A stretch of 64,000 bases of DNA from Nodosilinea sp. E11. Lineage in GTDB: Bacteria; Cyanobacteriota; Cyanobacteriia; Phormidesmidales; Phormidesmidaceae. Positions 31,673 through 32,611 of the stretch are shown here, in pieces. The stretch is from positions 3,218,001-3,282,000 of the forward strand of contig NZ_CP136520.1 of the NCBI RefSeq assembly GCF_032813545.1, read 5' to 3'. The number at the start of each line of letters is the position of its first letter. The stretch's first letter is position 1. Both the position numbers and the translations under genes were made by a program. Below the pieces are notes generated by a model. The model made no database searches. It was given only the letters and a program-made list of their open reading frames with translations, and was not told the DNA's origin.

Positions 31673-32611
31673 CTATTTGAGGTGGTGGCCAATGACCATC
31701 TGTAGCAAGGTCGGCTCACCCCCTGGCTGGTGATATTTGTCAGCCCAGGCGCGGATGACTTCGTCAAGTTCTTGGAGGGCGACCTCGCGATCGCTCACCG
31801 GGATATCTAGCTGCTCTAGCACTCGCATCGTGCCGGGTATGCGATTAGCCCACTCGCGAATCATGCGGAAGTACTGGGCGGTGTCTTCGACCATGGCATA
31901 CATGCGCTCTTGGTCATCGACTGGAGCGTAGGAGGATCGCACTAGCCCATAGTACGATGCGCCCCAGGAGGCATCAATGCGGGCGACCGTACCCGAATAA
32001 ATCAGGCGACGGCGAATGTGCTCTGCCAGGGCTTCGCTGAGGGGTGCCTGGTGAGCGGCGGGGAGGTCTTCTTGAGATTTTTCGTGCAGAATCTCGATCA
32101 GCTCTAGAAACTGAAAGGAATTGATAATGCGGGCATCGGGGCAAGGCGTAGGCAGCTTGTTCTCTAGCAGAGTTTTCTCTTCGATGGTGAGGGAGGTGCC
32201 CGCGACGCGCGACTGCCCTGGTGCCCAAGGGTAGCGCCGCAGCCACATGTAAGGAAACTGGATCAAATAGCGGGGTTCTTGGGAGCCCAGCATTTTGAGC
32301 AGCTTGCCCTCGGTGAGCGCCTGGCGCATTTCCTCGACAATGGCCTTTACCCGCTTTGGCTCGATATGGTGCAGATGGCCAGTCATGCGCAGGTTTTCGC
32401 CCTGCTCAAGGTAGGTCATGTAGATGGCGCACTTGGCGGCGGTGGCGGCAGCATCTAAAAAAGCGCCGTGACGATGGCCACCGGTACGCATCGCACTAAA
32501 GGCGATGTACAGCAAAATCTGGTCGATCGCGCTAGGGCTAAGACGGCGAATCAGGGCTTCGTCTTCTACCGGTAGTGGAGACAAGGACATGGAGTGAAGA
32601 GGGTCAGCCAT
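31673..32611 (-). CDS. hetR: HetR developmental regulator
   Basis: A 312-residue HetR. Most of the N-terminal DNA-binding half matches Anabaena HetR as I remember it: [54 protein letters not shown], and [20 protein letters not shown]. The flap and hood domains follow ([50 protein letters not shown]). HetR dimers bind DNA and are inhibited by RGSGR peptides. The segment equivalent to Anabaena residues 250-256 (RLLEELD) reads RVLEQLD here (263-269), with Gln267 in place of Glu254. The protein is ~13 residues longer than in Anabaena, mostly at the N-terminus; Met8 is an alternative start. A patX-like gene lies upstream on the same strand. Confidence 0.96.

Follow-up and report, generated by a model that had tools for sequence, protein, structure and literature searches.

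Co-variation of HetR residue 254 with the residue preceding RGSGR in PatX, and a rare glutamine at this position in Nodosilinea sp. E11

Residue 254 of HetR (numbering of Anabaena PCC 7120) varies together with residue X, which directly precedes RGSGR in the PatX protein encoded near hetR. This link was found in the follow-up of a single codon of the window, as we call the whole 64,000-nucleotide stretch of Nodosilinea sp. E11 DNA analysed here (NZ_CP136520.1, positions 3,218,001 to 3,282,000), where hetR encodes Gln in place of Glu254. That a receptor residue tracks a ligand residue is a more interesting result than the rare Gln itself. The reading we lean towards is that residue 254 and X form a co-varying contact, the physical side of which we infer, and that the window's Gln is a mild change made after its partner had changed; sequence, conservation, co-variation on the tree and specificity controls come from the present work, and the contact map and affinities are those of Hu et al. 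(2015). In strains lacking heterocysts, the way in which HetR reads its inhibitor peptides is unsettled; the residue preceding RGSGR has been thought unimportant. One HetR column tracking one PatX residue, set against 126 HetR and six PatX control positions, would name the exact residue pair concerned; if this is true, evolution sees the whole hexapeptide and not RGSGR alone, and joint change of a peptide signal and its receptor becomes observable.

Glutamine at position 254 of the HetR pocket

31673..32611, minus strand: hetR, 312 aa, canonical HetR (open reading frame, family models, PDB alignments)
31811..31813, minus strand: codon CAG for Gln267, counterpart of Anabaena Glu254 (codon reading, PDB alignment, offset mapping)
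31805..31825, minus strand: RVLEQLD, residues 263-269, peptide-binding segment (alignment; role after Hu et al., 2015)
31814..31816, minus strand: Glu266, counterpart of Glu253, kept (this and the next four lines: offset mapping; Hu et al., 2015)
31805..31807, minus strand: Asp269, counterpart of Asp256, second clamp of the peptide amine, kept
31763..31765, minus strand: Asp283, counterpart of Asp270, kept
31739..31741, minus strand: Asp291, counterpart of Asp278, kept
31904..31906, minus strand: Arg236, counterpart of Arg223, kept

Judged from its sequence, there is little doubt that the protein encoded at 31673..32611 is HetR: it matches Pfam models PF18460 (HetR_C, E 1.2e-35) and PF03574, scores 508.3 bits with NCBIfam model NF009718 (cut-off 489) and aligns with PDB HetR chains 3qod, 4hri and 4ynl, the last representing the already solved peptide pocket, with Gln267 standing opposite Glu in all three alignments. 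At an offset of +13, Anabaena residues R223, E253, E254, D256, D270 and D278 correspond to R, E, Q, D, D and D, so that among these positions Glu254 is the only one replaced; it is a pocket residue that does not define HetR (49 of 290 canonical sequences lack it). The presence of Gln267 at this position, as read in the assembled sequence, is confirmed, and it is rare. The first-pass annotation, which had pointed to CAG at 31811-31813 within RVLEQLD (263-269), was correct in coordinates, codon and numbering according to the open reading frame, the codon and the three PDB alignments; the Anabaena segment was given there as RLLEELD, rightly as to Glu at 254 and wrongly as to the second residue, 4hri reading RALEELD. 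The same genome encodes a second HetR-like protein, 48% identical (G000:C7:1167493-1168374, locus L082), which has Val at 254 (RGVEVFD) and retains E253, D256, D270, D278 and R223; Val is found at 254 in four related paralogues (L108-L111) as well.

In the crystal complex of the hood of Anabaena PCC 7120 HetR with PatS6, the arginines of ERGSGR are held by Glu253, Asp270′ and Asp278′, and the N-terminal amine of the hexapeptide by Glu254 together with Asp256 (Hu et al., 2015, PMC4649674). The role of site 254 in the peptide pocket, assumed from the outset, is thereby borne out, and the proposal that its acid faces the peptide arginines is contradicted, since Glu254 contacts the amine and the arginine partners E253, D270 and D278 are all kept in the window; a further part of the earlier interpretation, compensation by motif number, is not supported either (see below). 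Dissociation constants for PatS6 are 12 nM for the wild type, 91 nM for E254A, 427 nM for D256A, 2252 nM for D270A and 1626 nM for D278A, and E253A does not bind, Glu253 being indispensable in Anabaena (PMC4649674). E254A is thus the mildest of the five pocket alanine mutants tested, and DNA is still released from it by excess peptide, so that Gln at 254 should do little harm. The expectation that loss of the acid weakens binding holds for E254A in Anabaena (12 to 91 nM), but it concerns the mildest position of the pocket, where Gln is predicted to be nearly harmless. According to the same study, the N-terminal residue of PatS6 can be replaced without change in affinity for Anabaena HetR, and in heterocyst formers the pocket residues are strictly conserved (PMC4649674).

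In 290 distinct canonical HetR rows residue 254 is Glu in 241, Thr in 31, Ser in 8, Ala in 8 and Gln in 2; two of these rows, L359 and L361, duplicate L167 and L269 in truncated form, which corrects the total to 288, Thr to 30 and Ser to 7. The rows were gathered via genome-contig loci, whole-genome searches and fetched regions and make up a non-random sample, family f11, home of the T254 clade, having been searched deliberately. Before trees were built, four rows with an internal stop in the aligned stretch (L332, L334 and the S254 rows L117 and L121 of genus g7) were dropped, as were HetR-like rows below 57% identity (L330 was kept by name) and the partial matches L107, L350 and L365. Among the best 80 of 372 HetR loci from genome contigs Glu254 is present in 79 and Gln in one (L013), which belongs to a Shackletoniella antarctica MAG and is, besides that of the window, the only HetR of the 290 rows with Gln254. 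At the stage of 256 HetRs, R223, R250, E253 and D270 were invariant in all 256, D256 was represented by D (248), N (6) and E (2), and D278 by D (249) and N (7); residue 254 is the most variable acid of the peptide pocket. The six HetRs read from genus g10 of the window's family (L137-L142) combine D256N with D278N and keep E254, which amounts to a double charge loss within one pocket.

Gln254 probably arose in two separate single-base changes, as the trees suggest. The DNA tree of the 30 nearest HetRs unites L013 (CAA, Gln) with L014 (GAA, Glu) at 98/84 and separates both from the window, which disfavours a common origin of both Gln cases, and in the protein tree the window (CAG) stands beside L012 (GAG, Glu) with SH-aLRT 90, below the star. 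Each Gln codon is one base away from the Glu codon of its neighbour, so that both could have come about by single-base steps; in the DNA tree the 20 rows surrounding the window form an open set, with which one gain of Gln followed by later losses would also agree.

PatX beside hetR and the residue preceding RGSGR

32998..33306, minus strand: PatX-like open reading frame, 102 aa, hydrophobic towards its N-terminus and containing three RGSGR motifs; same strand as hetR, upstream of it
33142..33159, minus strand: first motif, DRGSGR, residues 50-55
33088..33105, minus strand: second motif, FRGSGR, residues 68-73
33019..33036, minus strand: third motif, YRGSGR, residues 91-96

The open reading frame at 32998-33306 shows the attributes of PatX, namely a small protein with RG(S/T)GR adjoining hetR in a filamentous cyanobacterium, and 23 of 29 further near relatives have a three-motif PatX in the corresponding location. 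The DIF1 promoter motif (TCCGGA), reported for Anabaena patX (PMC7377430) and not known to be defining, has no exact copy near 33306; the only two copies of the window, at 24489 and 24581, are away from patX, and the hexanucleotide is under-represented in the window as a whole (mean of 13.7 copies in 100 shuffles). Multi-motif PatX is common in the window's family, where the number of RGSGR motifs ranges from 2 to 9 and some motifs of L019 and L120 form near-identical tandem units; it is found also in family f15 (L305, 8 motifs), resembling a multi-copy peptide precursor. In family f14 (L328, L269/L329, L330) a PatX-like open reading frame of 70-71 aa with ERGSGR is found upstream of hetR but divergent from it, whereas the other PatX counted here share the strand of hetR.

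The initial criterion for PatX was an RG[ST]GR open reading frame with ATG on the same strand, at most 2.6 kb upstream of hetR, and no such frame was found in 115 of 216 E254 rows; within 3 kb upstream on either strand there was none in 126 of 290 rows. Around the best 80 of 372 loci, searched on both strands from about 3.5 kb upstream to 2.5 kb downstream, PatX was not found beside hetR in most titled heterocyst formers, so that the comparison of X with residue 254 runs mostly without them. Wider stretches revealed PatX for f14 (divergent, 70-71 aa) and G456 (25 aa), both added by hand; two GRGTGR and one RRGSGR in f14 stretches without a usable ATG start were excluded as PatX. No RG(S/T)GR motif was met in the 40 kb read for G360 (T254; row L167/L359, family f7, RVLETMD) or in the 10 kb read for G539, a relative of G540 (A254). 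Losses of E254 lacking an X assignment are L167 (T254), L307 (A254, contig end), L258 and L262 (T254, short upstream region). A two-strand scan made after the tests detected motifs in 8 of 134 rows devoid of same-strand PatX: four were already in the test set, and the other four, all E254 without an ATG start and left out, comprise three His-led motifs and one Phe-led and give no counter-example.

The final test set consists of 156 HetR rows with PatX nearby. Wherever X of the first motif is His, E254 is kept (77 of 77 rows), and each of the 41 rows without E254 has a first X other than His (Glu in 28, Tyr in 8, Asp in 3 and Arg in 2). The remaining 38 rows have a non-His first X and yet retain E254, and the link is thus permissive and not strict. 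Parsimony requires seven changes between Glu and non-Glu on the tree, and the signal is carried by about seven independent losses of E254. Independent pairs numbered 5 (6 on all branches) and were unable to reach 0.05, so likelihood tests with simulation were used, the tree of HetR itself serving in place of a species tree. A loss rate of E254 dependent on X was supported at p=0.00017 for 'first X not His', a trait picked after inspection of the tree from six tried (motif number, any acid, first acid, all acid, no His, first not His), and at p=0.0005 for absence of His from all motifs. Acidic X proved to be a weaker partner of residue 254 (p=0.019, independent pairs not significant) because Tyr-led lineages lost E254 too.

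The association is specific on both sides. Among 127 HetR columns tested against the first X (consensus of 50% or more, 8 or more deviating rows, no more than 10 gaps) position 254 comes out on top, ahead of 161 (p=0.0019) and 284; 251 and 252, its neighbours on the strand, take fourth and sixth place, the sign being reversed for 251, which changes faster where X is His. Of the seven PatX positions flanking the first motif (-4 to -1, +1 to +3), X (-1) alone is associated with loss of E254, the others giving p from 0.19 to 1, at lower power as these positions are far more variable. The signal joins receptor residue 254 with ligand residue X, which lie at the same end of the crystal complex. On leaving out each of the six loss groups p stays between 0.0003 and 0.0027, being weakest without the two Gln rows; thinning of the T clade to two rows gives p 0.00025, and p is 0.0005 on a tree from which the hood domain was left out. 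In 200 null simulations with Glu as the starting state, retained if it had been lost in 15 to 80 tips, the observed ratio was never reached. Among rows with PatX added after the hypothesis was recorded, the first X is His in all 16 with E254 and Tyr in all five without it, the latter falling within the clade of earlier A254 rows and adding no new events. In family f14 (S254), whose PatX had been previously unseen, the divergent PatX-like frame reads ERGSGR in three of three distinct HetRs.

In the window's clade His is absent in 28 of 28 rows and E254 is lost in only two, and L237, which adjoins the T254 clade (X=Glu), combines X=Glu with E254; in at least two groups X would thus have changed first and residue 254 followed, and this order is, on the sequences at hand, the probable one. 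The replacement at 254 seems to fit the type of X, which is only suggestive given the small number of events. Ser or Thr occurs with acidic X (the T clade, genus g7, which has Tyr-led motifs too, and family f14), Ala with Tyr (the f15 clade and L211) and Gln with D/F/Y; less easily accommodated are L357, where Thr accompanies Tyr, and two T254 rows with Arg-led motifs. The A254 row L305 has three His motifs among its eight, the first being Tyr-led.

Readings of the co-variation

According to the preferred reading, a contact between X and 254, the common state would be His before RGSGR with Glu at 254. Departure of X from His (to Asp, Phe and Tyr in the three motifs of the window's lineage) would release or alter the demand for a carboxylate at 254, after which Glu could be replaced several times, with Gln as the outcome in the window and one relative, Thr or Ser in lineages of mainly acidic X and Ala in those with Tyr. 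In the window, Gln254 would still be able, together with the retained Asp256, to accept a hydrogen bond from the peptide's N-terminal amine, and the RGSGR core would still be gripped by E253, D270, D278 and R223. PatX peptides should then still bind and take HetR off DNA, with at most a modest change in affinity. Among the points against this contact, PatS and HetN of Anabaena carry ERGSGR (PMC7761841) alongside E254, and the replaceable N-terminal residue of PatS6 speaks against direct engagement of the X side chain in Anabaena. A bolder form, which we regard as possible but doubtful, is a recognition code in which His goes with Glu, an acid with Ser or Thr, Tyr with Ala, and sets of Asp, Phe and Tyr with Glu or Gln; filamentous cyanobacterial lineages would by drift have acquired private peptide-receptor pairs, the peptide changing first and the receptor after it; if it is true, neighbouring species could be insulated from each other's signals.

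Some chance, clearly below even, is left to indirect co-variation, in which a third factor such as a PatX-processing protease or peptide length drives both X and 254, the amine no longer being positioned at 254. It draws on the export of Nostoc PatX and its cutting by PatP at sites unconfirmed in vivo (PMC12756182) and on the crystal, where E254 touches the peptide amine and not the X side chain; the lack of association of 254 with PatX positions -4 to -2 and +1 to +3, where traces of a cleavage site might be expected, stands against it.

Slightly less probable still is neutral drift, which regards 254 as the least critical pocket residue and its Gln as a conservative, near-neutral replacement unrelated to PatX. 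Residual affinity and DNA release of E254A, the invariance of E253, D270 and R223 in 256 HetRs where 254 varies, and the one-base distance of each Gln codon from a neighbouring Glu codon all agree with it, but against it stand the uniformly non-His first X of the losses with known PatX, the likelihood and simulation results and the weaker link of all other 126 HetR columns to X.

The number of motifs had been suggested to matter, three RGSGR copies possibly making up for weakened binding. In the 30-row tree, 22 E254 HetRs are accompanied by exactly three motifs (led by D, F and Y in 21 and by D, I and Y in one), four further E254 HetRs have two, four or five motifs and two more yielded no PatX on their short contigs; the three-motif state therefore predates Gln. 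PatX has one motif in 25 of 25 rows of the T254 clade with PatX (256-row stage) and in 4 of 7 A254 HetRs with PatX; in the set of 152 rows multi-motif PatX accompanies 8 of 37 non-E254 rows, the other 29 having one motif, against 46 of 115 E254 rows. As a partner of 254, motif number was rejected: of 5 independent pairs 1.4 go in the same direction, none in the opposite and 3.6 show no difference, and the likelihood test of its effect on the E254 loss rate gives p=0.87 (0.88 on the hood-free tree). Gln254 with a single-motif PatX, named in advance as the refuting case, was not found, only two Gln HetRs being available and both three-motif; other non-acidic residues at 254 are commonly paired with a single motif. 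Compensation by dose is thus very improbable, even with the roughly 7.6-fold lower affinity of E254A, the three motifs beside both Gln HetRs and the four to nine of S254 genus g7 on its side, in view of three-motif relatives with E254, single-motif lineages without it and no association on the tree.

Comparison with known systems

In the literature searched, which does not include the founding PatX paper (Elhai and Khudyakov, 2018), where multi-motif PatX or X residues may be treated, E254 of HetR is dealt with by Hu et al. (2015) alone, and neither natural variation at 254 nor its pairing with PatX was met in a title or abstract. PatX as known from that founding work (via PMC7761841, PMC12756182 and PMC11298460) is a small open reading frame with hydrophobic start and RGSGR adjoining hetR, and the frame of the window is alike. 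In Leptolyngbya BL0902, also non-heterocystous, patX lies directly upstream of hetR as in the window, and the effects of patX there appeared largely independent of hetR (PMC11298460), which calls for caution as to inhibition of HetR by PatX outside heterocyst formers. Nostoc PatX carries the His-led HRGTGR, whereas the three motifs of the window are led by D, F and Y; HRGTGR binds HetR with a Kd of 88 nM (PMC12756182), which fits His-Glu pairing, and the same strain has PatS with ERGSGR. With HetR of Anabaena PCC 7120 in complex with PatS6 (Hu et al., 2015, PMC4649674) the window protein shares family and pocket, keeping E253, D256, D270, D278 and R223, and it differs by Gln at 254, a position that is variable in the filamentous cyanobacteria sampled here.
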